DNA of 64,000 nt from Henricia sp. BOLD:AAB3569 (lineage: Eukaryota > Echinodermata > Asteroidea > Spinulosida > Echinasteridae), in the NCBI GenBank assembly GCA_037783545.1, contig JBBELK010000056.1:496001-560000 (forward strand), written 5' to 3'. Made by a program: the position numbers and the translations under genes. The first letter of the stretch is position 1, and each line of letters opens with the position of its first letter. Shown piece by piece: positions 1-35,114 of the stretch. The notes beneath the pieces were generated by a model. It worked only from the letters and a program-made list of their open reading frames with translations, did no database searches and was not told the DNA's origin.

Positions 1-111
1 AATCGCCGTTCAAAACCTCGTTTCAAACCATTTGAATCACCTTTTCAAACCATTTAAACCACCGTTCGAAAACCCAGTTTCGAACCATTTCAACCGCCGT
101 TCGAAACCCCG

Positions 112-898
112 TTTCTGTATTTTTTCGGTATACATTGAACAAAGATTTGAAGGAAATTACCTCCTGGAATCAACAGATCATCCAATTACAAGATATACTT
201 CCCACTTTCACTTCTGTCGGAAATGTTGCATTGCTGAGATAAATAAATGATAAAATTACATTGTACTGCATAAAGTAATGCACAAAATTAATTACGGCGC
301 GAGCGGTCCGTGCGTAAGCGGGACAACAGAGGGCGCTGCGCGCAGGCGTGAATGATTATCTTGTGCACTAACTGAATACAAATTTTGAAGCAGAAAATGT
401 GATTTTTCTACATAAAAGCAACATTTGCGACAAAAGTGCAAGTGGGAAGTACATGTATACATGTATCTTAAATGCTCAATAACTTTATGCACAGTTTTTG
501 CTGCATATGAAGGATTACTTGTGTAGAAAGACAATACTACTGTTCATTTTGATACCCCATGAATAAAAAGTGGCATTTTTCAACTTTGAAAATTTCTTCA
601 CATAAACTCACAGAAAGAGGGTGCTGTTTGGGGCATGTCACTTTAGGAACACACAGCAGAAAAGCAAATAAAAAACATAAGACTTCAAACTGGAATTGTG
701 GAAAAATGCTGCAGTTTCCAGCCTTAGTTTTTTATTGTTTACAACAGGCGACATGTAAAACAAACCTAAACCGTCATGGGGTTACAAAAGTTTTAGCAAG
801 TTGGAAAAAATTTTGGAAACTTTTGTGCACAGTTGAATGAGATTTTCCTGTGTTTTCCTAATGTGACATCACCACTTTTCTCATGCATATGTAAATTT
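112..898 (+). mobile_element. MITE-like composite module 1 inside the satellite
   Basis: Non-satellite block starting at the terminal motif of the MITE seen complete at 32609-33013. It holds that element's inner inverted repeat (CTTCCCACTTTCACTTCTGT on one side, its diverged reverse complement ending GTGCAAGTGGGAAGTA on the other) around an AGAGGGCGCTG core. It then runs into a second dispersed repeat (GGATTACTTGTG, TTTTTCAACTTTGAA, CACAGAAAGAGGG) also found at 27.8-28.2 kb. The right terminal repeat of the MITE is missing, so this is a chimera carried along by the satellite. Confidence 0.7.
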
Positions 899-1630
899 TC
901 ATTCGAAACCCCTTTTCGAACCATTTCAACCGCCATTCGAAAACCCCGTTTCGAACCATTTCAATTAAACCGCCGTTCGAAACCCCGCTTCGACTCATTC
1001 GGTTCCAACCGCCATTCAAAATCCCATTTCGAACCATTTCAGCCGCCATTCGAAACCCTGTTTCGAACCAATTTCAACCGCCATTCGAAATCCCATTTCG
1101 AACCATTTCAACCGCCATTCGAAAACCCCGTTTCGAACCATTTCAACCACCGTTCAAAACCCCGTTTCGAACTATTTCAACCGCCGTTCGTTTCAGATGG
1201 GTGTTTATTTGAGATCGAAACCCCGTTTCAAAGCATTTCAACCACCGTTCGAAACTCCGTTTCAAAGCATTTCAACCGCCATTCAAAACCCGGTTTCGAA
1301 CCATTTTCAATCGCCGTTCGAAACCCCGTTTCGAACCATTTCAATCGCCGTTCGAAACCATGTTTCAAACCATTTCAACCGCCGTTCGAAACCCCGTTTC
1401 GAACCATATCAATTGCCGTTTGAAACCCCGTTTCGAACCATATCAATTGCCGTTTGAAACCCCGTTTCAAACCATTTCAATCACCTTTTCAAACCATTTA
1501 AACCGCCGTTCGAAACCCCGTTTCGAACCATTTAAACCGCCGTTCGAAACCCCGTTTCAGACCATTTCAACCACCGTTCGAAAGCCCGTTTCGAACTATT
1601 TCAACCGCCGTTCGTTTGAGATGGGTGTTT

Positions 1631-1678
1631 GTTTGAGATGGGTGTTTGTTTCAGATGAAACAAACGCCCATCTGAAAC
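1631..1678. repeat. 48-bp hairpin at the head of the exon module
   Basis: The left arm GTTTGAGATGGGTGTTTGTT plus TC pairs with the right arm GAAACAAACGCCCATCTGAA plus AC around an AGAT loop. Arms are 22 nt with two mismatches, one of which is G-U compatible in RNA. It marks the satellite/exon-module junction. Near-identical hairpins sit at 5857-5904, 6268-6315, 8564-8611, 11456-11503, 14190-14237 and 16930-16977. It is followed by GTTGGGCAAG / CAAGCTGGCC short repeats. Confidence 0.8.
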
Positions 1679-1844
1679 GAGTTGGGCAAGCGGGCAAGCT
1701 GGCAAGCTGGCCAACAGATGGATGTTTCATTACCGTTCGACTTCAAAAAGATTGTGATAGACTCGTGATGGACTCAACTACAACCCTGGTGCTATAAAGT
1801 TGGTTCCAGCAATTAATTTAAATAGCATAACAAATTTAACTCAC

Positions 1845-1938
1845 GGGTTTGCTTGCCCTTTCTTCGATAATACTCCATGATGTGATGAACTGGAAAAGCA
1901 AAGGGAGCATCAACACCTTGGAATCGTAGGAGTTTATT
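1845..1938 (-). CDS. Candidate internal coding exon, copy 1
   Basis: Read on the minus strand, a 94-nt open block lies between a strong acceptor (pyrimidine-rich tract ending TTTTTTTCAG) and a consensus donor (GTGAGT). It encodes 31 codons plus one base, starting NKLLRFQGVDAPF and ending EYYRRKGKQT, with no stop. It is not made of the 34-bp unit. The family is not recognised. The stretch FPVHHIMEYYRRKG has a faint resemblance to the F-x-V-x-x-I-x-x-Y-x-R pattern in the second half of SH2 domains, which is only a hint. No partner exon is visible upstream or downstream in the satellite. It could be a real exon of a gene with repeat-filled introns, or an exon fragment captured and amplified by the satellite. 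Confidence 0.45.
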
Positions 1939-2417
1939 CTGAAAAAAAGAAATTTTAATACTTACATTGAGAATTGCTTACATTGAAAAATTGTGACCTG
2001 TCACCACAAAATGAGCTTAAAGTTGGAATTTTGAACCATTTCAACCGCCGTTCAAAATCCCATTTCGAACTATTTCAGCCGCCATTCAAAACCCTGTTTC
2101 GAACCATTTATACCGCCGTTCGAAACCCCATTTCGAACCAATTTCAACCGCCATTCGAAATCCCATTTCGAACCATTTCAATCGCCGTTCGAAACCCCGT
2201 TTCGAAGCATTTCAACCACCGTTCGAAACCCCGTTTCCAACCATTTCAACCGCCGTTCGAAAACCCAGTTTCGAACCATTTCAAACATATCAATTGCCGT
2301 TCGAAACCCCGTTTCAAATATTTCAACCACCGTTCGAAACCCCGTTTCAAACCATTTAAACCACCATTCGAAAACCCAGTTTCGAACCATTTCAACCGCC
2401 GTTCGAAACCCCGTTTC

Positions 2418-3203
2418 GGTATTTTTTCGGTATACATTGAACAAAGATTTGAAGGAAATTACCTCCTGGAATCAACAGATCATCCAATTACAATATATAC
2501 TTCCCACTTTCACTTCTGTCGGAAATGTTGCATTTCTGAGATAAGTAAATGATCAAATTACATTGTACTGCATAAAGTAATGCACAAAATTAATTACGGC
2601 GCGAGCGGTCCGTGCGTAAGCGCGACAACAGAGGGCGCTGCGCGCAGGCGTGAATGATTATCTTGTGCACTATCAACTGAATACAAATTTTGAAGAAGAA
2701 AATGTGATTTTTCTACATAAAAGCAACATTTGCGACAAAAGTGCAAGTGGGAAGTATACATGTATCTTAAATGCTCAATAACTTTATGCAGTTTTTGCTG
2801 CATATGAAGGATTACTTGTGTAGAAAGACAATACTACTGTTCATTTTGATACCCCATCAATAAAAAGTGGCATTTTTCAACTTTGAAAATTTCTTCACAT
2901 AAACTCATAGAAAGAGGGCGCTGTTTGGGGCATGTCACTTTAGGAACACACAGCAGAAAAGCAAAGAAAAAACATAAGACTTCAAACTGGAATTGTGGAA
3001 AAATGCTGCAGTTTCCAGCCTTAGTTTTTTATGGTTTACAACAGGCAACATGTAAAACATACCTAAACCGTCATGGGGTTACAAAAGTTTTAGCAAGTTT
3101 CAGCAAGTTGGAGAAAATTGTGGAAACTTTTGTGCACAGTTGAATGAGATTTTCCTGTGTTTTCCTAATGTGACATCACCACTTTCCTCATATGTAAATT
3201 TTC
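2418..3203 (+). mobile_element. MITE-like composite module 2
   Basis: Same architecture as module 1: left terminal repeat, inner inverted repeat around AGAGGGCGCTG at 2630-2640, then the AACTTTGAAAATTTCTTCAC repeat, ending where TTCGAAACCCC units resume. It differs from module 1 by small indels, so the modules diverged before the 6933-bp duplication copied both. Confidence 0.7.
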
Positions 3204-3919
3204 ATTCGAAACCCCTTTTCGAACCATTTCAACCGCCATTCGAAAACCCCGTTTCGAACCATTTCAATTAAACCGCCGTTCGAAACCCCGCTTCGACCCA
3301 TTCGGTTCCAACCGCCATTAAAAATCCCATTTCGAACCATTTCAATCGCCGTTCGAAACCCCGTTTCAAACCATTTCAAACTCCGTTCGAAACCCTGTTT
3401 CGAAGCATTTCAACCACCGTTCGAAACCCTGTTTCAAACCATTTCAACCGCCGTTCAAAACCCCGTTTCAAACCATTTCAATCACCTTTTCAAACCATTT
3501 AAACCGTACCGCCATTCGAAAACCCAGTTTCGAACCATTTAAACCGCCGTTCGAAACCCCATTTCAACCGATGTTCGAAAGCCCATTTCGAACCATTTCA
3601 ACCACCGTTCAAAACCCCGTTTCGAACTATTTCAACCGCCGTTCGTTTGAGATGGTGTTTGTTTGAGATCGAAACCCGTTTCAAACCATTTCAATCGCCG
3701 TTCGAAACCCCGTTTCAAACCATTTCAATCACCTTTTCAAACCATTTAAACCACCATTCGAAAACCCGTTTCGAACCATTTCAACCACCGTTCAAAACCC
3801 CATTTCAGACCATTCCAATCGCCGTTTCCAACGATTTAAGCCGCCATTCGAAAGCCCGTTTCGAACCATTTCAACCACCGTTCAAAACCCATTTCAACCG
3901 CCGTTCGAAACCCCGTTTC

Positions 3920-4401
3920 GGTATTTTTTTCGGTATACATTGAACAAAGATTTGAAGGAAATTACCTCCTGGAATCAACAGATCATCCAATTACAAGATA
4001 TACTTCCCACTTTCACTTCTGTCGGAAATGTTGCATTTCTGAGATAAATAAATGATACAATTACATTGTACTGCATAAAGTAATGCACAAAATTAATTAC
4101 GGCGCGAGCGGTCCGCCCCGTGCGTAAGCGCGACAGCAGAGGGCGCTGCGCGCAGGCGTGAATGATTATCTTGTGCACTAACTGAATAAAAATTTTGAAG
4201 AAGAAAATGTGATTTTTCTACATAAAAGTAACATTTGCGACAAAAGTGCAAGTGGGAAGTATACATGTATCTTAAATGCTCAATAACTTTATGCAGTTTT
4301 TGCTGCATATGAAGGATTACTTGTGTAGAAAGACAATACTACTGTTCATTTTGATACCCCATGAATAAAAAGTGGCATTTTTCAACTTTGAAAATTTCTT
4401 C
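3920..4401 (+). mobile_element. MITE-like composite module 3 (3' truncated)
   Basis: Same left part as modules 1 and 2, but satellite units resume directly after TTTTTCAACTTTGAAAATTT. The last ~300 bp present in the other modules are absent. Confidence 0.7.
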
Positions 4402-5412
4402 AACCACCGTTCGAAACCCCGTTTCAAACCATTTTAATCGCCGCTTCAAACCATATTACTTGCCGTTCGAAACCCCGTTTCAAACCATTTCTACCGCCGT
4501 TCGAAACCCCGTTTCAAACCATTTCAATCACCTTTTCAAACCATTTAAACCACCATTCGAAAACCCAGTTTCGAACCAATTTCAACCGCCATTCGAAATC
4601 CCATTTCGAACCATTTCAATCGCCGTTCGAAACCCCGTTTCAAACCATTTCAACCGCCGTTCGAAACCCCGTTTCAAACCATTTCAACCGCCGTTCGAAA
4701 CCACGTTTCAAACCATTTCAATCACCATTTCAAACCATTTAAACCGCCATTCGAAAACCCAGTTTCGAACCATTTAAACCGCTGTTTAAAACCCTGTTTC
4801 GAACCATTTCAACCACCGTTCAAAACCCCGTTTCGAACTATTTCAACCGCCGTTCTTTTTTAGATGGGTGTTTATTTAAGATCGAAACCCCGTTTCAAAG
4901 CATTTCAACCACCATTCAAAACCCGGTTTTGAACCATTTTCAACCACCATTCGAAATCCCATTTCGAACCATTTTCAATCGCCGTTCGAAACCCTGTTTC
5001 GAACCATTTCAATCGCCAATCGAAACCCCGTTTCAAACCATTTCAACCGCCGTTCGAAACCCCTGTTTCAAACCATTTCAACCGTCTTTCAAAACCCCTG
5101 TTTCGAACCATTTCAATCACCTTTTCAAACCATTTAAACCGCCATTCGAAAACCCAGTTTCAAACCATTTCAACCACCGTTCAAAACCCCGTTTCAAACC
5201 ATTTCAACCGCCTTTCGAAACCCCGTTTCAAACCATTTCAATCACCTTTTCAAACCATTTAAACCGCCATTCGAAAGCCCGTTTCGAACCATTTCAACCA
5301 CCGTTCGAAACCCCAATTCAATCGCCGTTCGAAACCCCGTTTCAAACCATTCAAACCACCATTCGAAAACCCAGTTTCGAACCATTTCAACCGCCGTTCG
5401 AAACCCCGTTTC

Positions 5413-5530
5413 GGTATTTTTTCGGTATACATTGAACAAAAATTTGAAGGAAATTACCTGCTGGAATCAACAGATCATCCAATTAATTAATGTGACATCA
5501 CCACTTTCCTCATGCATATGTAAATTTTCA
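5413..5530 (+). mobile_element. Internally deleted MITE-like module
   Basis: Begins with the same GGTATTTTTTCGGTATACAT end, but jumps after CAGATCATCCAATTAAT straight to the last part of the full module (TGTGACATCACCACTTTCC). About 670 bp of interior are lost. Confidence 0.7.
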
Positions 5531-6349
5531 TTCGAAACCCCTTTTCGAACCATTTCAATTAAACCGCCGTTCGAAACCCCGCTTCGACCCATTCGGTTCC
5601 AACCGCCATTCAAAATCCCATTTCGAACCATTTCAGCCGCCATTCGAAACCCCGTTTCGAACCAATTTCAACCGCCATTCGAAACCCCATTTCGAACTAT
5701 TTCAATCACCGTTCGAAACCCCGTTTCAAACCATTTCAATCGCCATCCGAAAACCCAGTTTCGAACCATTTAAACCGCCGTTTTGAACCATTTAAACCGC
5801 CGTTTGAAACCCTGTTTCGAACCATTTCAACCGCCGTTCGTTTGAGATGGGTGTTTGTTTGAGAGGGGTGTTTGTTTCAGATGAAACAAACGCCCATCTG
5901 AAACAAGTTGGGCAAGTTGGGCAAGCTGGCCAACAGATGGGTGTTTCATTACCGTTCGACTTCTAAAAAGATTGTGATAGACTTGTGATGGACTCGACTA
6001 CAACCCTGGTGCTATAAAGTTGGTTCCAGCAATTAATTTAAGAAGCATAAAAAATTTAACTCGCCGCTTCAAATCATATTAATTGCCGTTCGAAACCCCG
6101 TTTCAAACCATTTCAACCGCCATTCGAAAACCCCGTTTCGAACCATTTCAACCACCGTTTCAAACCATTTCAATCGCCGTTCAAAACCCCGTTTCCAACC
6201 ATTTCAACCGCCATTCGTTTCAGATGGGTGTTTGTTTCAGATGGGTGCTTGCTTCAGACGCTTGTTTGTTTGAGATGGGTGTTTGTTTCAGATGAAACAA
6301 ACGCCCATCTGAAACAAGTTGGGCAAGCTGGCCAACAGATGGATGTTGT

Positions 6350-6514
6350 AGATGGATATATAAAACGAATGCTCTTGATCCGGGTGATGGTGAAAGTTAC
6401 CACCACTCTGTGATTACTTTCAAAGAATTTGGGGTTGTTTATCATGTACACAAGCTAAGCTTGATTCATGACTGTGGTCAACTACTGGTCGATGACTCAT
6501 GGCAACACACATAA
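6350..6514 (+). other. Unrecognised open segment in non-satellite insert
   Basis: Between two satellite blocks lies ~340 bp of unique sequence (6340-6680). One plus-strand frame is open from the upstream hairpin region to a TAA at 6512-6514, and includes the peptide NALDPGDGESYHHSVITFKE followed by FGVVYHVHKLSLIHDCGQ. It has balanced, protein-like composition but no ATG, no obvious splice sites and no family I recognise. It could be an exon remnant or chance. The rest of the insert ends in short TTGGCCAA-type repeats at 6610-6680. Confidence 0.2.
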
Positions 6515-7044
6515 GAATTAATTTGCAAGCCCGAATGCCTTTGATTAGTTAGTTTGTTCTGCGCAAAATGTAGCGGATGCGCGTAAATAAAGCCGGGGTA
6601 CCGGGCTGCTTTGTACCAAAAAAGTTGGCCAAGTTGGCCAAAAGTTGGCAAGCTGAGCTTGGTCAAGTTGGCCAAGTTCGAACCATTTAAACCGCCGTTT
6701 GAAACCCTGTTTCGAACAATTTCAACCGCCGTTCGAAACCCCGTTTCAAACCATTTCAATCACCTTTTCAAACCATTTAAACCGTAATTCGAAAACCCAG
6801 TTTCGAACCATTTAAACCGCCGTTTGAAACCCTGTTTCGAACCATTTCAACCACCGTTCGAAACCCCATTTCAGACGCCGTTTCATTGCAACCATTTAAG
6901 CCGCCATTCGAAAACCCAGTTTCAAAGCATTTCAATCGCCGTTCAAAACCTCGTTTCAAACCATTTGAATCACCTTTTCAAACCATTTAAACCACCGTTC
7001 GAAAACCCAGTTTCGAACCATTTCAACCGCCGTTCGAAACCCCG

Positions 7045-7831
7045 TTTCTGTATTTTTTCGGTATACATTGAACAAAGATTTGAAGGAAATTACCTCCTGG
7101 AATCAACAGATCATCCAATTACAAGATATACTTCCCACTTTCACTTCTGTCGGAAATGTTGCATTGCTGAGATAAATAAATGATAAAATTACATTGTACT
7201 GCATAAAGTAATGCACAAAATTAATTACGGCGCGAGCGGTCCGTGCGTAAGCGGGACAACAGAGGGCGCTGCGCGCAGGCGTGAATGATTATCTTGTGCT
7301 CTAACTGAATACAAATTTTGAAGCAGAAAATGTGATTTTTCTACATAAAAGCAACATTTGCGACAAAAGTGCAAGTGGGAAGTACATGTATACATGTATC
7401 TTAAATGCTCAATAACTTTATGCACAGTTTTTGCTGCATATGAAGGATTACTTGTGTAGAAAGACAATACTACTGTTCATTTTGATACCCCATGAATAAA
7501 AAGTGGCATTTTTCAACTTTGAAAATTTCTTCACATAAACTCACAGAAAGAGGGTGCTGTTTGGGGCATGTCACTTTAGGAACACACAGCAGAAAAGCAA
7601 ATAAAAAACATAAGACTTCAAACTGGAATTGTGGAAAAATGCTGCAGTTTCCAGCCTTAGTTTTTTATTGTTTACAACAGGCGACATGTAAAACAAACCT
7701 AAACCGTCATGGGGTTACAAAAGTTTTAGCAAGTTGGAAAAAATTTTGGAAACTTTTGTGCACAGTTGAATGAGATTTTCCTGTGTTTTCCTAATGTGAC
7801 ATCACCACTTTTCTCATGCATATGTAAATTT
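7045..7831 (+). mobile_element. MITE-like composite module 4
   Basis: Copy of module 1 produced by the 6933-bp duplication. Confidence 0.7.
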
Positions 7832-8777
7832 TCATTCGAAACCCCTTTTCGAACCATTTCAACCGCCATTCGAAAACCCCGTTTCGAACCATTTCAATTA
7901 AACCGCCGTTCGAAACCCCGCTTCGACTCATTCGGTTCCAACCGCCATTCAAAATCCCATTTCGAACCATTTCAGCCGCCATTCGAAACCCTGTTTCGAA
8001 CCAATTTCAACCGCCATTCGAAATCCCATTTCGAACCATTTCAACCGCCATTCGAAAACCCCGTTTCGAACCATTTCAACCACCGTTCAAAACCCCGTTT
8101 CGAACTATTTCAACCGCCGTTCGTTTCAGATGGGTGTTTATTTGAGATCGAAACCCCGTTTCAAAGCATTTCAACCACCGTTCGAAACTCCGTTTCAAAG
8201 CATTTCAACCCCCATTCAAAACCCGGTTTCGAACCATTTTCAATCGCCGTTCGAAACCCCGTTTCGAACCATTTCAATCGCCGTTCGAAACCATGTTTCA
8301 AACCATTTCAACCGCCGTTCGAAACCCCGTTTCGAACCATATCAATTGCCGTTTGAAACCCCGTTTCGAACCATATCAATTGCCGTTTGAAACCCCGTTT
8401 CAAACCATTTCAATCACCTTTTCAAACCATTTAAACCGCCGTTCGAAACCCCGTTTCGAACCATTTAAACCGCCGTTCGAAACCCCGTTTCAGACCATTT
8501 CAACCACCGTTCGAAAGCCCGTTTCGAACTATTTCAACCGCCGTTCGTTTGAGATGGGTGTTTGTTTGAGATGGGTGTTTGTTTCAGATGAAACAAACGC
8601 CCATCTGAAACGAGTTGGGCAAGCGGGCAAGCTGGCAAGCTGGCCAACAGATGGATGTTTCATTACCGTTCGACTTCAAAAAGATTGTGATAGACTCGTG
8701 ATGGACTCAACTACAACCCTGGTGCTATAAAGTTGGTTCCAGCAATTAATTTAAATAGCATAACAAATTTAACTCAC

Positions 8778-8871
8778 GGGTTTGCTTGCCCTTTCTTCGA
8801 TAATACTCCATGATGTGATGAACTGGAAAAGCAAAGGGAGCATCAACACCTTGGAATCGTAGGAGTTTATT
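8778..8871 (-). CDS. Candidate internal coding exon, copy 2
   Basis: Same sequence, acceptor, donor and phase as copy 1, brought by the 6933-bp duplication. The reading frame is intact. Confidence 0.42.
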
Positions 8872-9350
8872 CTGAAAAAAAGAAATTTTAATACTTACAT
8901 TGAGAATTGCTTACATTGAAAAATTGTGACCTGTCACCACAAAATGAGCTTAAAGTTGGAATTTTGAACCATTTCAACCGCCGTTCAAAATCCCATTTCG
9001 AACTATTTCAGCCGCCATTCAAAACCCTGTTTCGAACCATTTATACCGCCGTTCGAAACCCCATTTCGAACCAATTTCAACCGCCATTCGAAATCCCATT
9101 TCGAACCATTTCAATCGCCGTTCGAAACCCCGTTTCGAAGCATTTCAACCACCGTTCGAAACCCCGTTTCCAACCATTTCAACCGCCGTTCGAAAACCCA
9201 GTTTCGAACCATTTCAAACATATCAATTGCCGTTCGAAACCCCGTTTCAAATATTTCAACCACCGTTCGAAACCCCGTTTCAAACCATTTAAACCACCAT
9301 TCGAAAACCCAGTTTCGAACCATTTCAACCGCCGTTCGAAACCCCGTTTC

Positions 9351-10136
9351 GGTATTTTTTCGGTATACATTGAACAAAGATTTGAAGGAAATTACCTCCT
9401 GGAATCAACAGATCATCCAATTACAATATATACTTCCCACTTTCACTTCTGTCGGAAATGTTGCATTTCTGAGATAAGTAAATGATCAAATTACATTGTA
9501 CTGCATAAAGTAATGCACAAAATTAATTACGGCGCGAGCGGTCCGTGCGTAAGCGCGACAACAGAGGGCGCTGCGCGCAGGCGTGAATGATTATCTTGTG
9601 CACTATCAACTGAATACAAATTTTGAAGAAGAAAATGTGATTTTTCTACATAAAAGCAACATTTGCGACAAAAGTGCAAGTGGGAAGTATACATGTATCT
9701 TAAATGCTCAATAACTTTATGCAGTTTTTGCTGCATATGAAGGATTACTTGTGTAGAAAGACAATACTACTGTTCATTTTGATACCCCATCAATAAAAAG
9801 TGGCATTTTTCAACTTTGAAAATTTCTTCACATAAACTCATAGAAAGAGGGCGCTGTTTGGGGCATGTCACTTTAGGAACACACAGCAGAAAAGCAAAGA
9901 AAAAACATAAGACTTCAAACTGGAATTGTGGAAAAATGCTGCAGTTTCCAGCCTTAGTTTTTTATGGTTTACAACAGGCAACATGTAAAACATACCTAAA
10001 CCGTCATGGGGTTACAAAAGTTTTAGCAAGTTTCAGCAAGTTGGAGAAAATTGTGGAAACTTTTGTGCACAGTTGAATGAGATTTTCCTGTGTTTTCCTA
10101 ATGTGACATCACCACTTTCCTCATATGTAAATTTTC
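9351..10136 (+). mobile_element. MITE-like composite module 5
   Basis: Copy of module 2 produced by the 6933-bp duplication. Confidence 0.7.
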
Positions 10137-10740
10137 ATTCGAAACCCCTTTTCGAACCATTTCAACCGCCATTCGAAAACCCCGTTTCGAACCATTTCAA
10201 TTAAACCGCCGTTCGAAACCCCGCTTCGACCCATTCGGTTCCAACCGCCATTAAAAATCCCATTTCGAACCATTTCAATCGCCGTTCGAAACCCCGTTTC
10301 AAACCATTTCAAACTCCGTTCGAAACCCTGTTTCGAAGCATTTCAACCACCGTTCGAAACCCTGTTTCAAACCATTTCAACCGCCGTTCAAAACCCCGTT
10401 TCAAACCATTTCAATCACCTTTTCAAACCATTTAAACCGTACCGCCATTCGAAAACCCAGTTTCGAACCATTTAAACCGCCGTTCGAAACCCCATTTCAA
10501 CCGATGTTCGAAAGCCCATTTCGAACCATTTCAACCACCGTTCAAAACCCCGTTTCGAACTATTTCAACCGCCGTTCGTTTGAGATGGTGTTTGTTTGAG
10601 ATCGAAACCCGTTTCAAACCATTTCAATCGCCGTTCGAAACCCCGTTTCAAACCATTTCAATCACCTTTTCAAACCATTTAAACCACCATTCGAAAACCC
10701 AGTTTCGAACCATTTCAACCGCCGTTCGAAACCCCGTTTC

Positions 10741-10860
10741 GGTATTTTTTCGGTATACATTGAACAAAGATTTGAAGGAAATTACCTCCTGGAATCAACA
10801 GATCATCCAATTAATTAATGTGACATCACCACTTTCCTCATGCATATGTAAATTTTCATT
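10741..10860 (+). mobile_element. Internally deleted MITE-like module
   Basis: Same deletion junction as at 5413-5530, so the deleted form was already part of the repeat that spread. Confidence 0.7.
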
Positions 10861-11669
10861 CCAAACCCCTTTTCGAACCATTTCAACCGCCATTCGAAAA
10901 CCTCGTTTCGAACCATTTCAATTAAACCGCCGTTCGAAACCCCGCTTCGACCCATTCGGTTCCAACCGCCATTCAAAATCCCATTTCGAACCATTTCAGC
11001 CGCCATTCGAAATCCCGTTTCGAACCATTGATACCGCCGTTCGAAATCCCATTGCGAACCATTTCAACCGCCGTTCGAAACCCCGTTTCAAATCATTTCA
11101 ACCGCCGTTCGAAACCCCGTTTCAAACCATTTCAACCGCCGTTCGAAACCCCGTTTCGAACCATTTCAATCGCCGTTCGAAACCATGTTTCAAACCATTT
11201 CAACCGCCGTTCGAAACCCCGTTTCGAACCATATCAATTGCCGTTTGAAACCCCGTTTCGAACCATATCAATTGCCGTTTGAAACCCCGTTTCAAACCAT
11301 TTCAATCACCTTTTCAAACAATTTAAACCGCCGTTCGAAACCCCGTTTCGAACCATTTAAACCGCCGTTCGAAACCCCGTTTCAGACCATTTCAACCACC
11401 GTTCGAAAGCCCGTTTCGAACTATTTCAACCGCCGTTCGTTTGAGATGGGTGTTTGTTTGAGATGGGTGTTTGTTTCAGATGAAACAAACGCCCATCTGA
11501 AACGAGTTGGGCAAGCGGGCAAGCTGGCAAGCTGGCCAACAGATGGATGTTTCATTACCGTTCGACTTCAAAAAGATTGTGATAGACTCGTGATGGACTC
11601 AACTACAACCCTGGTGCTATAAAGTTGGTTCCAGCAATTAATTTAAATAGCATAACAAATTTAACTCAC

Positions 11670-11763
11670 GGGTTTGCTTGCCCTTTCTTCGATAATACTC
11701 CATGATGTGATGAACTGGAAAAGCAAAGGGAGCATCAACACCTTGGAATCGTAGGAGTTTATT
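11670..11763 (-). CDS. Candidate internal coding exon, copy 3
   Basis: Tandem copy of copy 2 (offset 2892). Frame and both splice sites are unchanged. Confidence 0.42.
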
Positions 11764-12242
11764 CTGAAAAAAAGAAATTTTAATACTTACATTGAGAATT
11801 GCTTACATTGAAAAATTGTGACCTGTCACCACAAAATGAGCTTAAAGTTGGAATTTTGAACCATTTCAACCGCCGTTCAAAATCCCATTTCGAACTATTT
11901 CAGCCGCCATTCAAAACCCTGTTTCGAACCATTTATACCGCCGTTCGAAACCCCATTTCGAACCAATTTCAACCGCCATTCGAAATCCCATTTCGAACCA
12001 TTTCAATCGCCGTTCGAAACCCCGTTTCGAAGCATTTCAACCACCGTTCGAAACCCCGTTTCCAACCATTTCAACCGCCGTTCGAAAACCCAGTTTCGAA
12101 CCATTTCAAACATATCAATTGCCGTTCGAAACCCCGTTTCAAATATTTCAACCACCGTTCGAAACCCCGTTTCAAACCATTTAAACCACCATTCGAAAAC
12201 CCAGTTTCGAACCATTTCAACCGCCGTTCGAAACCCCGTTTC

Positions 12243-13028
12243 GGTATTTTTTCGGTATACATTGAACAAAGATTTGAAGGAAATTACCTCCTGGAATCAA
12301 CAGATCATCCAATTACAATATATACTTCCCACTTTCACTTCTGTCGGAAATGTTGCATTTCTGAGATAAGTAAATGATCAAATTACATTGTACTGCATAA
12401 AGTAATGCACAAAATTAATTACGGCGCGAGCGGTCCGTGCGTAAGCGCGACAACAGAGGGCGCTGCGCGCAGGCGTGAATGATTATCTTGTGCACTATCA
12501 ACTGAATACAAATTTTGAAGAAGAAAATGTGATTTTTCTACATAAAAGCAACATTTGCGACAAAAGTGCAAGTGGGAAGTATACATGTATCTTAAATGCT
12601 CAATAACTTTATGCAGTTTTTGCTGCATATGAAGGATTACTTGTGTAGAAAGACAATACTACTGTTCATTTTGATACCCCATCAATAAAAAGTGGCATTT
12701 TTCAACTTTGAAAATTTCTTCACATAAACTCATAGAAAGAGGGCGCTGTTTGGGGCATGTCACTTTAGGAACACACAGCAGAAAAGCAAAGAAAAAACAT
12801 AAGACTTCAAACTGGAATTGTGGAAAAATGCTGCAGTTTCCAGCCTTAGTTTTTTATGGTTTACAACAGGCAACATGTAAAACATACCTAAACCGTCATG
12901 GGGTTACAAAAGTTTTAGCAAGTTTCAGCAAGTTGGAGAAAATTGTGGAAACTTTTGTGCACAGTTGAATGAGATTTTCCTGTGTTTTCCTAATGTGACA
13001 TCACCACTTTCCTCATATGTAAATTTTC
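12243..13028 (+). mobile_element. MITE-like composite module 6
   Basis: Copy of module 5 produced by the 2892-bp tandem duplication. Confidence 0.7.
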
Positions 13029-13632
13029 ATTCGAAACCCCTTTTCGAACCATTTCAACCGCCATTCGAAAACCCCGTTTCGAACCATTTCAATTAAACCG
13101 CCGTTCGAAACCCCGCTTCGACCCATTCGGTTCCAACCGCCATTAAAAATCCCATTTCGAACCATTTCAATCGCCGTTCGAAACCCCGTTTCAAACCATT
13201 TCAAACTCCGTTCGAAACCCTGTTTCGAAGCATTTCAACCACCGTTCGAAACCCTGTTTCAAACCATTTCAACCGCCGTTCAAAACCCCGTTTCAAACCA
13301 TTTCAATCACCTTTTCAAACCATTTAAACCGTACCGCCATTCGAAAACCCAGTTTCGAACCATTTAAACCGCCGTTCGAAACCCCATTTCAACCGATGTT
13401 CGAAAGCCCATTTCGAACCATTTCAACCACCGTTCAAAACCCCGTTTCGAACTATTTCAACCGCCGTTCGTTTGAGATGGTGTTTGTTTGAGATCGAAAC
13501 CCGTTTCAAACCATTTCAATCGCCGTTCGAAACCCCGTTTCAAACCATTTCAATCACCTTTTCAAACCATTTAAACCACCATTCGAAAACCCAGTTTCGA
13601 ACCATTTCAACCGCCGTTCGAAACCCCGTTTC

Positions 13633-13752
13633 GGTATTTTTTCGGTATACATTGAACAAAGATTTGAAGGAAATTACCTCCTGGAATCAACAGATCATCC
13701 AATTAATTAATGTGACATCACCACTTTCCTCATGCATATGTAAATTTTCATT
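13633..13752 (+). mobile_element. Internally deleted MITE-like module
   Basis: Tandem copy (offset 2892) of 10741-10860. Confidence 0.7.
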
Positions 13753-14387
13753 CCAAACCCCTTTTCGAACCATTTCAACCGCCATTCGAAAACCTCGTTT
13801 CGAACCATTTCAATTAAACCGCCGTTCGAAACCCCGCTTCGACCCATTCGGTTCCAACCGCCATTCAAAATCCCATTTCGAACCATTTCAGCCGCCATTC
13901 GAAATCCCGTTTCGAACCATTGATACCGCCGTTCGAAATCCCATTGCGAACCATTTCAACCGCCGTTCGAAACCCCGTTTCAAATCATTTCAACCGCCGT
14001 TCGAAACCCCGTTTCAAACCATTTCAACCGCCGTTCGAAACCCCGTTTCAAACCATTTCAACCGCCGTTCGAAACCCAGTTTCAAACCATTTCGACCGCC
14101 GTTCGAAACCCCGTTTCAAACCATTTCAACCACCGTTCAAAACCCTGTTTCGAACTATTTCAACCGCCGTTCGTTTCAGATGGGTGTTTGTTTGAGATGG
14201 GTGTTTGTTTCAGATGAAACGAACGCCCATCTGAAACAAGTTGGGCAAGCTGGCCAACAGATGGATGTTTCATTACCGTTCGACTTCAAAAAGATTGTGA
14301 TAGACTTGTGATGGACTCGACTACAACCCTGGTGCTATAAAGTTAGTTCCAGCAATTAATTTAAGAAGCATAAACAAATTAACTCAC

Positions 14388-14481
14388 GGGTTTGCTTGCC
14401 CTTTCTTCGATAATACTCCATGATGTGATGAACTGGAAAAGCAAAGGGAGCATCAACACCTTGGAATCGTAGGAGTTTATT
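14388..14481 (-). CDS. Candidate internal coding exon, copy 4
   Basis: The exon block is identical to copy 1, while its flanks already differ (AAGAAGCATAAACAAATTAA against AATAGCATAACAAATTTAAC, and a shorter region upstream of the acceptor on the minus strand). An exon that stays the same while its surroundings change is a mild sign of constraint, though 94 nt is too short to be sure. Confidence 0.45.
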
Positions 14482-15368
14482 CTGAAAAAAAGAAATTTAC
14501 TTACATTGAGAATTGCTTACATTGAAAAATTGTGACCTGTCACCACAAAACGAGCTTAAAGTTGGAATTTTGAAAGTTTGAACCATTTCAACCACCGTTT
14601 GAAACCCCTTTTCAAACGGCATTCGAAACCCCGTTTCAAACCATTTTAATCGCCGCTTCAAACCATATTACTTGTCGTTCGAAACCCCGTTTCAAACCAT
14701 TTCTACCGCCGTTCAAAACCCCGTTTCGAACTATTTCAACCGCCATTGAAAACTTCGAAACCCCTTTTCGAACCATTTCAACCGCCGTTCGAAAACCCGT
14801 TTCCAAACATTTCAACCGCCATTCGAAAACCCATTTCGAACCAATTTCAACCGCCATTCGAAAACCCTGTTTCGAACCATTTCAACCGCCATTCGAAAAC
14901 CCCCGCTTCGACCCATTCGGTTCCAACCGCCATTCGAAACCCCATTTCGAACCAATTTCAACCGCCATTCGAAATCCCATTTCGAAGCATTTCAACCACC
15001 GTTCGAAACCTCGTTTCAAACCGTTTCAAACCATTTCAAACCATTTCAACCGCCGTTCGAAAACCCCGTTTCAAACCATTTCAATCGCCGTTCAAAACCA
15101 CGTTTCAAACCATTTAAACCACCATTCGAAAACCCAGTTTCGAACCATTTCAACCGCCGTTCGAAATCCCATTTCGAAGCATTTCAACCACCGTTCGAAA
15201 CCTCGTTTCAAACCATTTCATCCGCCGTTCGAAAACCCAGTTTCGAACCATTTCAATCGCCGTTTCAAACATATCAATTGCCGTTCGAAACCCCGTTTCA
15301 AACCATTTAAACCACCATTCGAAAACCCAGTTTCGAACCATTTCAACCGCCGTTCGAAACCCCGTTTC

Positions 15369-16004
15369 GGTATTTTTTTCGGTATACATTAAACAAAGAT
15401 TTGAAGGAAATTACCTCCTGGAATCAACAGATCATTCAATTACAAGATATACTTCCCACTTTCACTTCTGTCGGAAATGTTGCATTTCTGAGATAAATAA
15501 ATGATAAAATTACATTGTACTGCATAAAGTAATGCACAAAATTAATTACGGCGCGAGCGGTCCGTGCGTAAGCGCGACAGCAGAGGGCGCTGCGCGCAGG
15601 CGTGAATGATTATCTTGTGCACTAACTGAATACAAATTTTGAAGAAGAAAATGTGATTTGTCCACATAAAAGCAACATTTGCGACAAAAGTGCAAGTGGG
15701 AAGTATACATGTATCTTAAATGCTCAATAACTTTATGCAATAACTTTGGCATTTTTCAACTTTGAAAATTTCTTCACATAAACTCATAGAAATAGGGCGC
15801 TGTTTGGGGCATGTCACTTTAGGAACACACAGCAGAAAAGCAAAGAAAAAACATAAGACTTCAAACTGGAATTGTAGAAAAATGGTGCAGTTTCCAGCCT
15901 TAGTTTTTTATGGTAAAACAAACCTAAACCGTCATGGGGTTTTAATACAAAAGTTTTTAATTAGCAAGTTTCAGAAAATTGTGGAAACTTTTGTGCACAG
16001 TTGA
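15369..16004 (+). mobile_element. MITE-like composite module 7 (shortened)
   Basis: Same order of parts as module 1, with deletions near CTTTATGCAATAACTTTGGC and in the 3' part. It ends directly in a CCCCGTTTCGAACC unit. Confidence 0.65.
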
Positions 16005-17140
16005 ACCCCGTTTCGAACCATTTCAATTAAACCGCCGTTCGAAACCCCGCTTCGACACATTCAGTTCCAACCGCGATTCAAAATCCCATTTCGAACCATT
16101 GATACCGCCGTTCAAACCATTTCAATTAAACCGCCGTTCGAAACCCCGCTTCGACACATTCAGTTCCAACCGCGATTCAAAATCCCATTTCGAACCATTG
16201 ATACCGCCGTTCGAAACCCCATTTCGAACCATTTCAATCGCCGTTCGAAACCCTGTTTCGAACCATTCATACCGCCGTTCAATCGCCGTTCAAAACCCCG
16301 TTTCAAACCATTTCAACCGCCGTTCGAAACCCCATTTCGAACCATTTCAATCGCCGTTCGAAACCCCGTTTCAAACCATTTCAACCGCCGTTCGAAACCC
16401 CGTTTCGAACCATATCAATTGCCGTTTGAAACCCCGTTTCGAAGCATTTCAACCACCGTTCGAAATCCCATTTCGAACCATTTCAAACCATTTCAACCGC
16501 CGTTCGAAACCCCTTTTCGAACCATATCAATTGCCGTTTGAAACCCCGTTTCGAAGCATTTCAACCACCGTTCGAAACCCCATTTCAGACCATTTCAACC
16601 GATGTTCGAAAGCCCGTTTCGAACCATTTCAACCACCGTTCAAAACCCCGTTTCGAACTATTTCAACCGCCGTTCGTTTGAGATGGGTGTTTGTTTGAGA
16701 TTGAAACCCCGTTTCAAAGCATTTCAACCACCGTTCGAAACCCCGTTTCAAACCATTTCAATCGCCGTTCAATACCCCGTTTCAAACCATTTCAACCGCC
16801 GATCGAAACCCCGTTTCAAACCATTTCAATCACCTTTTCAAACCATTTAAACCACCATTCGAAAACCCAGTTTCGAACCAATTAAACCGCCGTTCGAAAC
16901 CCAGTTTCGAACTATTTTGATGGGTGTTTGTTTGAGATGGGTGTTTGTTCCAGATGAAACAAACGCCCATCTGAAACAAGTTGGGCAAGCTGGGCAAGCT
17001 GGCCAACAGATGGATGTTTCATTACCATTCGACTTCAAAAAGATTGTGATAGACTTGTGATGGACTCGACTACAACGTACCCTGGTGCTATAAAGTTGGT
17101 TCCAGCAATTAATTTAAGAAGCATAACAAAATTAACTCAC

Positions 17141-17237
17141 CGGTTTGCTTGCCCTTTCTTCGATAATACTCCGGCATGATGTGATGAACTGGAAAAGCAA
17201 AGGGAGCATCAACACCTTGGAATCGTAGGAGTTTATT
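17141..17237 (-). CDS. Candidate internal coding exon, copy 5 (one extra codon)
   Basis: This most diverged copy has a 3-nt insertion that adds a proline codon (HHIMPEYYRRKG) and keeps the frame. The base before the donor changes from C to G (ACCG|GTGAGT). The acceptor tract is purine-interrupted (TTTCTCTTTTCAG) but still good. An in-frame indel in the oldest-looking copy fits either coding constraint or chance. Confidence 0.42.
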
Positions 17238-18206
17238 CTGAAAAGAGAAATTTACTTACATTGAGAATCGCTTACATTGAGAATCGCTTACATTGAAAAA
17301 TTGTGACCCGTCAGCACAAAATGAGTTGAAAGTTTGAACCATTTGAACCGCCGTTCGAAACTCCGTTTCAAACCATTTCAACCGGCGTTCGAAACCCCAT
17401 TTCAAACCATTTCAACCGCCGTTCAAAACCCCGTTTCGAACTATTTCAACCGCCATTGAAAACTTTGAAACCCCGCCATTTCAACCGCCGTTCGAAAACC
17501 CGTTTCTAAACATTTCAACCGCCATTGGAAAACCCCGTTTCGAACCATTTCAATCGCCGTTCAAAACCCAGTTTCGAACCATTTCAACCGCCATTCGTTT
17601 CAGATGGGTGTTTGTTTGAGATGGGTGTTTGTTTCAGATGAAACAAACGCCCATCTGGGGCAAGTTGGGCAAGCTGGCCAACAGATGGATGTTTCAAACC
17701 ATTTCAACCGCCGTTCGAAACCCCGTTTCCAACCAATTTAACCACCATTCGAAACCCCGTTTCCAACCATTTCAATCGCCGTTCAAAACCACGTTTCAAA
17801 AGATTTCAACCGCCGTTCGAAACCCCGTTTCAAACCATTACAATCACCTTTTCAAACCATTTAAACCACCATTCGAAAACCCTGTTTCGAACCATTTCAA
17901 CCGCCGTTTCAAACCATTTCAACCGCCGTTCAAAACCCCGTTTCGAACCATTTCAACCGCCATTCGTTTCAGATTGATGTTTGTTTGAGATGGGCGTTTG
18001 TTTCAGAGGGGTGTTTGTTTTAGATATAACAAAAGCACATCTTAAACAAGTTGGGCAAGCTGGCCAACAGATGGATGTTTCATTACCGTTCGACTTCAAA
18101 AAGATTGTGATAGACTTGTGATGGACTCGACTACAACCCTGGTGCTATAAAGTTGGTTCCAGCAATTAATTTAAAAATCATACAAAATTTAACTCACCGG
18201 TTTGCT

Positions 18207-18440
18207 TGTGTCGTCGACTCTGAGATCGCAAACTTAGACTGGTTTCCACTGAAGCGTTTTATTGTCACAGACTCAGTTACGCAACACTCCGTGAAAACTA
18301 TTGACAAATCAAAGCAAAAGATAACAAAAATAGTAATACACGGAGTAATCTACCTTAAATTAGACACATGAAATATGCAAATGTCTCTAACAAACCTCTA
18401 ACTACATGTAAATACAGAACAAGGCAAAAACATGTATAGA
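18207..18440. other. Satellite edge; no gene recognised
   Basis: The last exon module stops after the final bases of the exon and its donor (ACTCACCGGTTTGCTTG, ending near 18206). The following 230 bp are unique AT-rich sequence with no convincing coding frame. Confidence 0.6.
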
Positions 18441-23570: not shown

Positions 23571-23660
23571 GCCGCTCATTCAGCCGCTGATTCAGCCGCA
23601 CATTCAGCCGCACATTCGAAAATTTATAAAATCTAGAATACATACACCACAGGATGTTTG
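23571..23660. repeat. Right flank of interrupted repeat with 12-bp sub-repeats
   Basis: GCCGCTCATTCA / GCCGCTGATTCA / GCCGCACATTCA are ~12-bp sub-repeats. The rest (ATCTAGAATACATACACCAC, then GGATGTTTGTCATCC) is shared in reverse with 30923-31003, which has one sub-repeat fewer. It merges into the 3' end of the gag-like pseudogene. Confidence 0.75.
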
Positions 23661-24712
23661 TCATCCGGGATGTTTGTCATCCGGGATGTTTGTCTTCCCT
23701 CGGCTGTCCGCTGGGCCGGCTTAGATTCGCCCTGTCCTCTCCTCAGATTGTCGTCGAATCCTTGTTTCCTACGCGGACAATCACGCCGGAAGTGCCCGAA
23801 TTCGTGGCACCCGAAGCACTCCACCATCGATCGGTCGAGCGGTCTACGCGCGTAGCCTGTGCTCTCAGTATTCCTGTCTGGCGGAGGTTGCGTTAGGTGC
23901 ACTACCGACCTCACGTCCCTGGTTCCTTGTTTCCGTTTCTTATTCTGCACCTAGGAGTCTGGGAAAGCCTCCATGCATCTCCGTGGCCAGGGTTATTGCT
24001 TCGGTCAGGGTCGTCGCTTTCTCGAAAAGACGTGGCGTTGCAGCTGTTCGTCGCCTAATGCATTCCTGAAAGCCTCCACAGCCATGTCCTCCCGCGCTTG
24101 CGTGGGGAGGTTCGGGTATAGCTCTTGGAAACCAACCGCCTGATCGACTGCCCCAGGCTGCTGATAGGTTCGTCCCGACCCCTGGTGCGCATCGACAAAC
24201 GGGCCCGATGTAAAGGAATTTGGGCCGTGACCCCAAACCGCTGCTCGAAGTACTCCAGGATGCTGGGATACTCCCTTCGTGCCTCCGGGGCCATGTTGGC
24301 CAGGACCTCTTGTGCCGAGCTCCTCAGATGGGAGGCTAAAAACATATATAGCCTTTTCGGCCTCGCCCCACTGGTTAACCGTTGCCACGCTCTCGAAGTG
24401 GATAAGGTAATCGGACCACGACGAGACCCCATCAAACTTATCTGGGAGCATCAATGGTCGTCGGCTCCCCGAGGGGTCCTCAGCGGCTCCTGCCCTGGAG
24501 CCGCAGGTGAAACCGTCCCGGCCTGATTTCAAATCCATAGGTTTGTACAGTGCGGAGCGGATCTTCGTGCTCCGCACCATAGGTTTGTGCAGTGCGGAGC
24601 GGCTTTCCATATGGTTGTGCAGTGCGGAGCGGCTCTCCATAGGTTTGTGCAGTGCGGAGCGGCTCTCCATAGGTTTGTGCAGTGCGGAGCTGATTTTCGT
24701 GCGGGGATCCAA
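23640..24712 (-). pseudogene. Decayed LTR-retrotransposon gag, frameshifted
   Basis: Read on the minus strand, a capsid-like gag of the Ty3/Gypsy type is spread over at least three frames. The N-terminal part with the motif FDGVSSWSDYLIHFESVA is near 24440. The following capsid segment (EVLANMAPEARREYPSILEY) lies in another frame near 24300, a later segment (REDMAVEAFRNALGDEQLQR) is back in the first frame, and the capsid end is in a third frame near 23990. A CCHC zinc knuckle, CFGCHEFGHFRRDC (C-x2-C-x4-H-x4-C), follows at about 23800-23840. The order matches known gag proteins: capsid then nucleocapsid. Frameshifts between segments mean it cannot be translated as one protein. No protease, reverse transcriptase or integrase follows, and the 3' end runs into the repeat at 23571-23660. 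The extreme N-terminus is made of a 30-bp tandem repeat. Confidence 0.75.
24537..24705. repeat. 30-bp tandem repeat at the gag N-terminus
   Basis: About five copies of CATAGGTTTGTGCAGTGCGG followed by AGCGGCTCTC. On the minus strand they encode a repeated ~10-residue peptide (SALHKPMESR) in frame, because the unit is divisible by three. Confidence 0.85.
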
Positions 24713-25328
24713 ATCGTTAATTAGGTACTAAATAATGTGCGGCTGAAGCTAGGTCTAAAATTAAGTGTGCCCGGGGATGGAACCAATTAGAAAATGCATT
24801 AAAAGTCGTTAATTTTCCAAAAATGAGTGTAGCAAAATGTTTTAAAGGAGTGCGGGCGAAAATATTATTGAAATCCTGACTTTTTAGGGCTACTCCTTTA
24901 AATCGTTAATTAGGTACTAAATAATGTGCGGCTGAAGCTAGGTCCAAAATTAAGTGTGCCCGGGGATGGAACCAATTAGAAAATGCATTAAAAGTCGTTA
25001 ATTTTCCAAAAATGAGTGTAGCAATATTTTTAAAGGCTTGCGGTCGAAAATATTATTGAAATCTTGACTTTTTAGGGCTACTCCTTTAAATCGTTAATTA
25101 GGTACTAAATAATGTGCGGCTGAAGCTAGGTCCAAAATTAAGTGTGCCCGGGGATGGAACCAATTAGAAAATGCATTAAAAGTCGTTAATTTTCCAAAAA
25201 TGAGTGTAGCAAAATTTGTAAAGGCTTGCGGTCGAAAATATTATTGAAATCTTGACTTTTTAGGGCTACTCCTTTAAATCGTTAATTAGGTACTAAATAA
25301 TGTGCGGCTGAAGCTAGCTCCAAAATTA
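24711..25328 (+). repeat. 188-bp tandem repeat, about 3.3 copies
   Basis: Units begin AAATCGTTAATTAGGTACTA at 24711, 24900, 25088 and 25276 (spacings 189, 188, 188). They carry GTGTGCCCGGGGATGGAACC, and the fourth is cut short at AAGCTAGCTCCAAAATTAAG. Copies differ at few positions. Lying just upstream (minus strand) of the gag, they may be the leader region of the same retroelement. Confidence 0.9.
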
Positions 25329-31049: not shown

Positions 31050-31559
31050 TTGAAAAGCTCTTTTGTTATACATTTTTAAGGATGCATGTTTTTTTGTGCA
31101 ACAGGGAACTGCATATGAGTGTACTCTTGGGGGCAGTTATACACTACAGAATTAGCCCATACATGTAGTACTACCAGGGCAGAGCTGGTCTCTAAATTGT
31201 TGGCTTGGGGTCAAGTCAGTTTTTCGTTTTTGACCTGTAACTTGACTCTGGAGAAAATGACTTGTGACAAGACTTAGGAAATATGATTGATTTACGACTT
31301 GAAATAAAAACTAGTCATCAAGTCTCCAGCTCCATAGACATACATAAAACTGCAAGTGCAGTCTTTTGGGGAATAAATTGGAACCAGGCTGGCCAAGGAC
31401 CGAAAGAAACTGTATAGTAGGACATGGGTCTGTTTTATTGCAACTGGACAGCCGGACCATTTGGGAGGCTTTCCAGCTGGCCCTAGATGATTTCAACTGT
31501 CATTTAGCCAACGGACCAGTGCTAATTCGAACGCTGTATTAAAGTTAGCGACTTGGAAA

Positions 31560-32230: not shown

Positions 32231-32608
32231 AAGTCGCTACCTATAGGTCATGTAGGCCTAGGTACATATCGTTTTAAATTTTTTTTTAGAGTGGGCAGTT
32301 ACTTTATTGGCAAGGCCATATAGGCCTACTTATATTTTTAAATATAAGTAGGCCTAGGGCTATGCTACTTCCTGTTTATTTTTTTTACTGAAATGATAGT
32401 ATTAGGGCCTAAAAGTATATTTTTTAATGGATGACGAGAAAAGGTACCATGGCAAAAGGGGATTAGAAGCACAGCACTCTACTGCCGTTGTTGAAGGCAA
32501 AATTACAATGGTATTGACTGCGTGGAGAACCCTGCCAAGCATTTTCTAAATGATACATGTAGTTTGCTTTCTTAACAAGAAATAATTAAAAAGTAACATT
32601 ATAATTTG

Positions 32609-33013: not shown

Positions 33014-33035
33014 ATAATTTGTTTTGCCTCTTCAG

Positions 33036-35092: not shown

Positions 35093-35114
35093 CTGAAGAG
35101 GCAAAACAAATTAT

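Follow-up and report, generated by a model that had tools for sequence, protein, structure and literature searches.

Higher-order (complex) satellite arrays are homogenised by unequal crossing-over, and the capture of gene fragments by mobile or repetitive DNA is a recognised kind of event. Clusters of mutually exclusive exons consist of head-to-tail exon copies that resemble each other in length and share their splice sites, and the inclusion of two copies disrupts the frame (PMC3228551, PMC5740500). In human, 60% of such clusters include exons whose length is not a multiple of three (PMC5740500). The locus described here shares features with each of these systems, and a like case was not found among the literature matches listed. 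The explanation that we favor, with moderate confidence, is that a gene exon and its adjoining intron were captured by an array of a 34-bp satellite and amplified by unequal crossing-over.

The DNA analyzed came from Henricia sp. BOLD:AAB3569 (assembly GCA_037783545.1, 740.7 Mb) and consisted of positions 496,001-560,000 of contig JBBELK010000056.1 (C56), a stretch of 64,000 nt referred to as the window. The array portion of the window spans 1-18250 and is about 56% 34-bp satellite, with exon-bearing (E) segments and B segments interspersed. Five exon blocks were located on the minus strand: c1 (1845-1938), c2 (8778-8871), c3 (11670-11763), c4 (14388-14481), and c5 (17141-17237), which is the first complete array copy when reading along that strand. 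This confirmed the existence and positions of the five minus-strand blocks of 94-97 nt listed in the initial annotation. All five are preceded by ...TTTCAG, with GTGAGTTAA directly after. The c1-c4 blocks are 94 nt long and identical in sequence. c5 is 97 nt long and had been described as differing by exactly one codon; the 3-nt insertion (CCG) is indeed present, but the last base is also changed from C to G. Two further copies of the downstream, post-exon segment were found on the minus strand. In d6 (17989-18208), at the array edge, the exon is truncated to its last 11 nt and the strong donor is intact, while in d7 (5846-6069) the exon is absent and the donor GT is replaced by GC where the satellite joins. 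A possible LTR, suggested by the look of the 18.2-kb edge, was dropped since the window showed no paired repeat.

The identity of c1, c2, and c3 across about 405 bp, flanks included, reflects recent duplication of their units. Positions 1-3806 match 6934-10740 at 99.84%, and c1 and c2 show 2 differences in 3,733 bp. The c2/c3 tandem duplication (8251-14111, offset 2,892 bp) has edges within the satellite and shows 6 differences in 2,968 bp, with none across about 2.4 kb. Because c1-c3 derive from very recent duplications, the five blocks represent no more than three independent lineages. All three duplication edges seen (one for c1/c2 and two for c2/c3) lie in satellite, which is weak evidence alone since satellite makes up 56% of the stretch. 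The initial annotation had also proposed that the flanks of the fourth copy vary more than its exon, and this was borne out: c4 differs from c1-c3 at 0 of 94 exon columns and by 11 substitutions in 291 flank columns (Fisher p 0.044). The non-satellite part of the unit is the B segment (2418-3205, minus strand, 788 bp), which contains internal inverted repeats and has relatives of 82-83% at 32687-33013 and 35441-35115. Twenty-one B copies of at least 600 bp were found in C56:300001-560000. Tandem units of several kilobases with a 34-bp repeat at their base, recent local duplications, and edges in satellite are also what is seen in higher-order satellite arrays, although the unit length here is irregular. 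What sets this array apart from them is that its unit carries a splice-intact block, of which one diverged relative occurs as a single copy outside the arrays, on contig C161.

Within the window, donor position -1 is C in four of the five blocks and only c5 has G|GTGAGT, the strongest donor. When scored with a splice matrix, the c5 donor tied with that of the truncated copy at 18198 for best among 7,769 GT sites, and the c1-c4 donors ranked 212. The 94-nt block length is 3n+1, which forbids the joining of two copies; when two are joined, TAA appears in frame 0. The open frame is weak evidence because 44% of shuffled blocks had one or more open frames (5% had at least two). Sixty Markov controls gave 3.95 +/- 2.05 splice-like pairs scoring at least 8.3 per 37 kb, and the scan-corrected P for conservation within the window was 0.14-0.18. 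In the window alone, neither splice signals nor conservation clearly exceeded chance. These values are consistent with another explanation, which we regard as rather unlikely: that the block is not an exon but a stretch with splice-like ends that arose by chance within intronic or repeat sequence common to the array and the C161 locus.

Across the assembly, copies were found at 81 places (88 rows, with seven copies listed twice; all 88 candidates were scored). The minus strand of C56 carries 53 of them between 359 and 513 kb, all in one orientation across 154 kb, and the plus strand carries 12 between 255 and 287 kb. Another 15 are on contig C377, and C161 has a single diverged copy. A pattern search of the assembly, which tolerated one mismatch only, gave 76 matches versus 0 in the control. 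Since 80 of the 81 copies sit in arrays on C56 and C377, they are not dispersed as those of a transposon would be. The array is like gene-fragment capture in that a small gene piece appears to have been multiplied together with repeats, but unlike capture by mobile DNA its multiplication is in tandem, and neither a transposase, nor terminal repeats flanking the exon segment, nor a target duplication was noticed in passing.

C377 is probably the other haplotype. Its identity with the C56 edge is 99.8% over 963 bp, and with one unit 99.64% over 3,093 bp; it lacks the 36 bp containing the d6 exon remnant and donor, and its first copy is 97 nt long and encodes the same peptide as c5. The main C56 array has 51 complete copies versus 14 on C377, and this difference in copy number between probable haplotypes is another likeness to higher-order satellites. 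These near-identities, together with the lack of any difference between c2 and c3 across about 2.4 kb, could also be read as duplicated haplotype or misassembly, so that the copy number would be inflated for some of the identical tracts. We consider this highly improbable. The 51 copies comprise 19 exon haplotypes at irregular spacings of 450 to 10,671 bp, unlike the duplication of a single tract, and for two of the four C377 units that were compared, L001 and L003, no C56 match over at least 1 kb exceeds about 97% and 92%, respectively.

The copies were then considered as a possible working cluster of mutually exclusive exons, in which a gene on the C56 minus strand would splice one copy per transcript, with the 3n+1 length blocking double inclusion and c5 as the default. 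Like Dscam-type clusters, the array has homologous, tandem copies of similar length in the same orientation (53 on the C56 minus strand) with conserved splice sites, and a stop upon double inclusion is found in many known clusters. Direct reading of 61 complete array copies showed AG and GT in every one, namely 51 of 51 from the C56 minus strand and 10 others. This retention fits a working cluster and argues against a chance splice-like stretch. The nine donor positions show no variation among the 51 copies. Two further observations fit a working cluster: all 13 scored substitutions in frame 0 are non-synonymous, and of the six distinct indels in the exon, four have a length divisible by three, versus 11 of 60 elsewhere (p = 0.021). 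An earlier count of 4/5 (p = 0.009) was superseded once a 1-nt deletion in the plus array was included. Variable columns are fewer in the exon (14/94) than in the preceding 85 nt (24/85; p = 0.023). A stronger exon-versus-flank contrast in the 51 copies (p = 0.0002) was set aside in favor of separate alignments, since poor alignment of the downstream columns had exaggerated it. The lower exon variation, invariant donors, and in-frame indels are hints of constraint. The B segment, however, is conserved to about the same degree, with 90 of 772 columns variable in 21 copies versus 7 of 94 exon columns in the 17 nearest units.

Other results make a working cluster unlikely. Frame conservation across all copies, which is expected of mutually exclusive exons, was not found: 11 of the 77 complete array copies are frame-shifted, comprising four of 83 nt and seven split matches. 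One of the split matches was read directly and is a 93-nt copy in the plus array with a 1-nt deletion. That none of the 13 scored frame-0 substitutions is synonymous can also be read as a sign against a working coding array. The 51 copies have just 19 haplotypes, the commonest of which occurs 16 times, and a C precedes the donor in 50 of them. No flanking coding exon was identified among the 10 of 60 long open frames (at least 110 aa) scanned in C56:300-362 kb, of which five had transposon or retroelement domains and five had no match. The frame shifts, many identical copies, satellite-filled spacers, and lack of an identified flanking exon in the frames scanned all differ from Dscam-type clusters. 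It is most likely that the block is an exon caught in satellite rather than part of a working exon cluster. The initial annotation had offered two options, a gene with a tandemly duplicated exon or a satellite spreading a captured exon; the genome-wide copies favor the second, and the first is not favored given the frame-shifted copies and the lack of a protein match.

Searches for the identity of the block did not return a match. The peptide, for which the initial annotation had advised a profile search, had no Pfam family and no match among solved structures. Protein searches with both open frames at two length ranges found no match either: one gave two candidates with shared words, neither of which scored, and the other gave none. 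Nothing was found in Rfam at the gathering threshold, and the patterns had no exact match in viral and prokaryote collections. The absence of Pfam and protein matches is consistent with a block that is not an exon. Frameshifts elsewhere, dead splice sites, and lack of a protein match had been named beforehand as signs against an intact, spliceable exon. The first and last were observed, but dead splice sites were rare, with the acceptor changed in one of the 76 matches (at C56:276850) to a pattern that tolerated a single mismatch.

The C161 copy was informative about the origin of the block. It has both an acceptor and a donor, and its putative exon of 96 nt has a frame unlike that of the 94-nt array copies, which would fit a non-exonic segment. 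Its first match to the array is 86.7% over 135 bp that take in 31 nt of intron, the exon, and the donor, and the second covers 65 bp of post-exon intron at 81.5%, about 390 bp past the donor, with order and strand kept. When 300 bp on each side were viewed, the similarity appeared to end at the exon edges; this was ruled out since it resumes downstream. Because it continues into the downstream intron motif, the similarity alone does not establish the block as an exon; the continuation supports a link to the C161 locus while weakening the case for an exon. On the other hand, C161 and the array differ by 12% yet have both splice sites in common, and the exon part is somewhat closer than the intron motif; both points argue against a chance splice-like stretch.

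Short pieces of the intron motif occur at three further spots in the 20-kb stretch of C161 and none were found in three non-array stretches (57,000, 18,700, and 5,240 bp). This distribution connects the captured segment with the C161 locus. With the C161 exon as query, the best 40 of 76 candidates gave no further contig, and four 13-mers found no satellite at the C161 locus. Ig exons lie about 6 kb downstream of the C161 copy on the same strand; among solved structures, their closest relatives are SYG-1, Kirre, and Roughest (E 8e-13 to 2e-11). Array intron-motif pieces also adjoin the first Ig frame of C161. From its proximity, strand, and the shared intron motif, the C161 copy may belong to this Kirre/SYG-1-like Ig gene, of the IRRE/Kirre/SYG-1 kind of cell-adhesion proteins. 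No Ig match was found in C56:300-560 kb or in L046, which also weighs against a working cluster.

Capture by satellite, our preferred explanation, would have proceeded as follows. The source would have been the gene that the C161 locus now represents, or one closely related to it, with the exon, its acceptor side, and some downstream intron passing into a 34-bp-satellite complex. The direction of capture is presumed to be from gene to satellite. Unequal crossing-over between satellite stretches would then have carried the exon within a larger unit of exon segment, satellite, and B segment, giving rise to the 80 copies in three places on two contigs. Most array copies may be passengers, presumably without function, and their spliceable appearance could be due to the youth and repeated homogenisation of the array, perhaps with some selection. 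A living polymorphic exon array is quite improbable. This would be an Ig-type cell-surface gene with more than 50 near-identical mutually exclusive exons, in which an intronic satellite drives copy-number change and the strong-donor first copy is the default. If it were true, the substitutions, all of which change an amino acid, would reflect diversification.

These data describe a naturally occurring instance of a satellite that appears to have multiplied a spliceable-looking exon to about 80 copies. They open the questions of how genes tolerate or make use of many identical exons, whether intronic satellites drive changes in exon copy number, and whether transcripts of such an array are spliced. 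Since the C161 locus has matching exon and intron pieces, it is a candidate parent, and the direction and age of the capture become testable.

Five minus-strand exon blocks, at 1845-1938, 8778-8871, 11670-11763, 14388-14481 and 17141-17237 of the window (c1 to c5), had been proposed in the initial annotation, and their positions were correct, with TTTCAG on one side and GTGAGTTAA on the other. Blocks c1 to c4 were each 94 nt and mutually identical. The fifth was said to differ by exactly one codon; the extra CCG was present, but c5 also ends in G. The five blocks overstate independence, since 1-3806 and 6934-10740 of the window were 99.84% identical and c2 and c3 had zero differences across ~2.4 kb (6 mismatches in 2,968 bp for the c2/c3 tract, both edges of which were within satellite). 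The window holds seven copies of the post-exon segment; the copy at 18208 retains only the final 11 nt of the exon, and the one at 6069 has none of it.

Splice sites in the window were scored with a splice-site matrix. The donors of c5 and of the remnant at 18198 tied for best among 7,769 GT sites, the c1-c4 donors, in which C precedes GT, ranked 212, and the block acceptors ranked 16 to 97 among 5,993. Open-frame splice pairs whose two scores add up to 8.3 or more, a level reached by c1-c3 and c5 with c4 below it, numbered 7 in the first 37 kb compared to 3.95 ± 2.05 in 60 Markov controls. The flanks varied more than the exon, as had been noticed for c4 against the other copies. Among three lineages, 1/94 exon columns and 24/291 flank columns were variable (Fisher p = 0.007); a poorer placement of the CCG gap gave 2/94 exon columns (p = 0.026). 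After correction for scanning, the probability for this conservation in the window was 0.14 to 0.18. The exon claim from the window alone is therefore only suggestive.

Across the assembly (740.7 Mb, 2,104 contigs), a 21-base pattern with at most one mismatch gave 76 matches and a control pattern gave 0. In a protein search, 88/88 candidates were scored and counted as at least 81 places; seven plus-strand copies were listed twice because they are frame-shifted. These places, lower bounds like all of the assembly-wide copy counts, were on the minus strand (53) and plus strand (12) of C56, the contig holding the window (at C56:496001-560000), and on contigs C377 (15) and C161 (1). The 53 copies in C56:300001-560000, all minus-strand and confined to 359398-513237, comprised 51 complete and 2 truncated copies. 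The complete ones were 94 (36 copies), 100 (4), 85 (4), 83 (4), 79 (2) and 97 nt (1) long, and AG and GTGAGTTAA were present in 51/51. Ten further complete copies were read, four from C377 (stretches L001-L004), one from L043 and five from C56 plus (L041, L042, L048); all ten kept AG and GT, with GTAAGT in two. One plus-strand copy among the pattern matches had CAT in place of the acceptor CAG. Exons were broken in six units of C56:300-560 kb, at 361.6, 362.6, 452.0, 495.1, 502.0 and 514.2 kb. The break adjoined the 34-bp satellite or its 17-bp relative in four units and other sequence in two, as in the truncated last copy of C377. Two of the four satellite-adjoining breaks, those of 495.1 and 502.0 kb, probably go back to a single event that was later copied.

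Other repeats were seen on C56. Window 37066-64000 is a tandem array with a unit of ~296 bp, copies ~98-99% identical and long open frames traversing it; its register changes near 51086-52190, a stretch that is also 296-bp satellite. An inverted repeat (31069-33423 and 34705-37059; 2.36-kb arms, 99.2% identity, 1.28-kb centre) stops exactly at the start of this array. Gag-like open frames on the minus strand at 23636-24727, one with a zinc knuckle under the curated cut-off, are perhaps a decayed retroelement. Between the two opposite-orientation arrays of C56 sits a Ty3/Gypsy-like retroelement (C56:316-323 kb; L022, L023), in which integrase, reverse transcriptase and PNMA-like gag domains were recognised. 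At C56:344248-345243 there is a short-period tandem repeat with several frames open and YVRDNS repeats on the minus strand.

The five window blocks had been described as keeping the proposed reading frame (frame 0). Across the assembly, 11 of 77 complete array copies (51 + 12 + 14; unread ones judged from the protein-search match) were shifted from the common phase. Four of these were 83 nt, and the other seven gave split protein-search matches; the one of these seven that was read directly was 93 nt with a 1-nt deletion. Distinct exon indels were +3, +6, -9, -15, -11 and -1, and 4/6 were multiples of three compared to 11/60 in the segments before and after the exon and the non-satellite B segment (p = 0.021), the -1 indel being from the plus array and the comparison indels from C56 minus. 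In a count confined to C56 minus, and leaving aside the final base, the 83-nt copies and one change beside the 15-nt deletion, 13/13 distinct substitutions were non-synonymous in frame 0, where the expected synonymous share is 0.25 (P = 0.025 for zero among 13). In frame 1, four of the same 13 were silent and one creates a stop. Variable columns were fewer in the exon (14/94) than in the preceding 85 nt (24/85; p = 0.023). In the 17 units nearest the long B copies, they were 7/94 in the exon, 10/84 before it and 19/162 after it, not far from 90/772 in the B segment (21 copies). These data therefore give no support for purifying selection on a frame-0 protein. Splicing or the frame may be under weak constraint.

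The C161 copy (1659667-1659762, minus strand) is 96 nt, 88% identical to c5, with acceptor CAG, donor G|GTTAGT and a frame unlike that of the array. Its contiguous match to the array (135 bp, 86.7%) spans 31 nt of pre-exon sequence and the whole exon and ends a few bases into the donor. A further 65-bp match (81.5%), to the post-exon intron of the array, lies ~390 bp past the donor, with strand and order preserved. No similarity above shuffled sequence was found on C161 within 300 bp upstream of the shared 31 nt, and four satellite 13-mers had 0 matches in the 20 kb of C161 examined. Ig-type frames start ~6 kb downstream on the same strand; two were above Pfam cut-offs (I-set, Ig_3, V-set), a third matched below them, and a fourth had no Pfam family yet resembles the first, whose best solved relatives were SYG-1, Kirre and Roughest (E 8e-13 to 2e-11). 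The C161 block may be an exon of this nearby Ig-type gene. A 33-bp piece of the intron motif is repeated inverted further along C161, and two more pieces lie near 3.5-3.7 kb of L044 (C161), beside the first Ig frame; C56:300-357 kb, window 18.3-37 kb and the unique part of L046 yielded none. Such short copies of the motif, which face either way around the Ig gene (C161:1659.0-1659.3 kb and 1653.5-1653.7 kb, L044), are perhaps a small dispersed repeat of the locus. The same neighbourhood as the Ig gene and the single-copy exon also has a single-frame open frame of a rhodopsin-type receptor (Pfam 7tm_1; C161:1664229-1665368, plus).

The C377 array opens with a 97-nt copy (C377:43852), as in c5. 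Its second unit matched that of c4 at 99.64% identity over 3,093 bp, and the flank outside the array matched C56 at 99.8% over 963 bp. Near 42895, C377 is without the 36 bp between two AGTT repeats of window 18195-18230, which contain the exon remnant and strong donor at 18.2 kb. The array has 15 copies in 58 kb on C377 compared to 53 in 154 kb on C56 minus. C377 most likely represents the other haplotype, on which the copy number differs. Counting against a simple allele, among the four units compared the best C56 matches of L001 and L003 were just ~97% and ~92%, and the far edge of C377 matched the part of C56 compared only in pieces resembling dispersed repeats.

Collinearity supports a first step in which the C161 gene, or a relative, would have been the source of a captured acceptor, exon, donor and some intron. 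The exon-carrying units could then have been multiplied through unequal crossing-over within the 34-bp satellite, giving the pattern seen. Recombination-broken copies, point changes and frameshifts build up in the array while splice sites persist. The array resembles a tandem exon cluster in appearance and works like a higher-order satellite. Reading-frame conservation is among the criteria for predicting mutually exclusive exons (PMC3228551), and the array departs from it. No comparable case was found among the literature matches listed, which is a weak statement; what is unusual is the combination of ~80 spliceable-looking copies and a single diverged relative elsewhere. If a single copy were used, including two copies would yield a stop, and c5, having the strong donor, would be preferred to the other copies.
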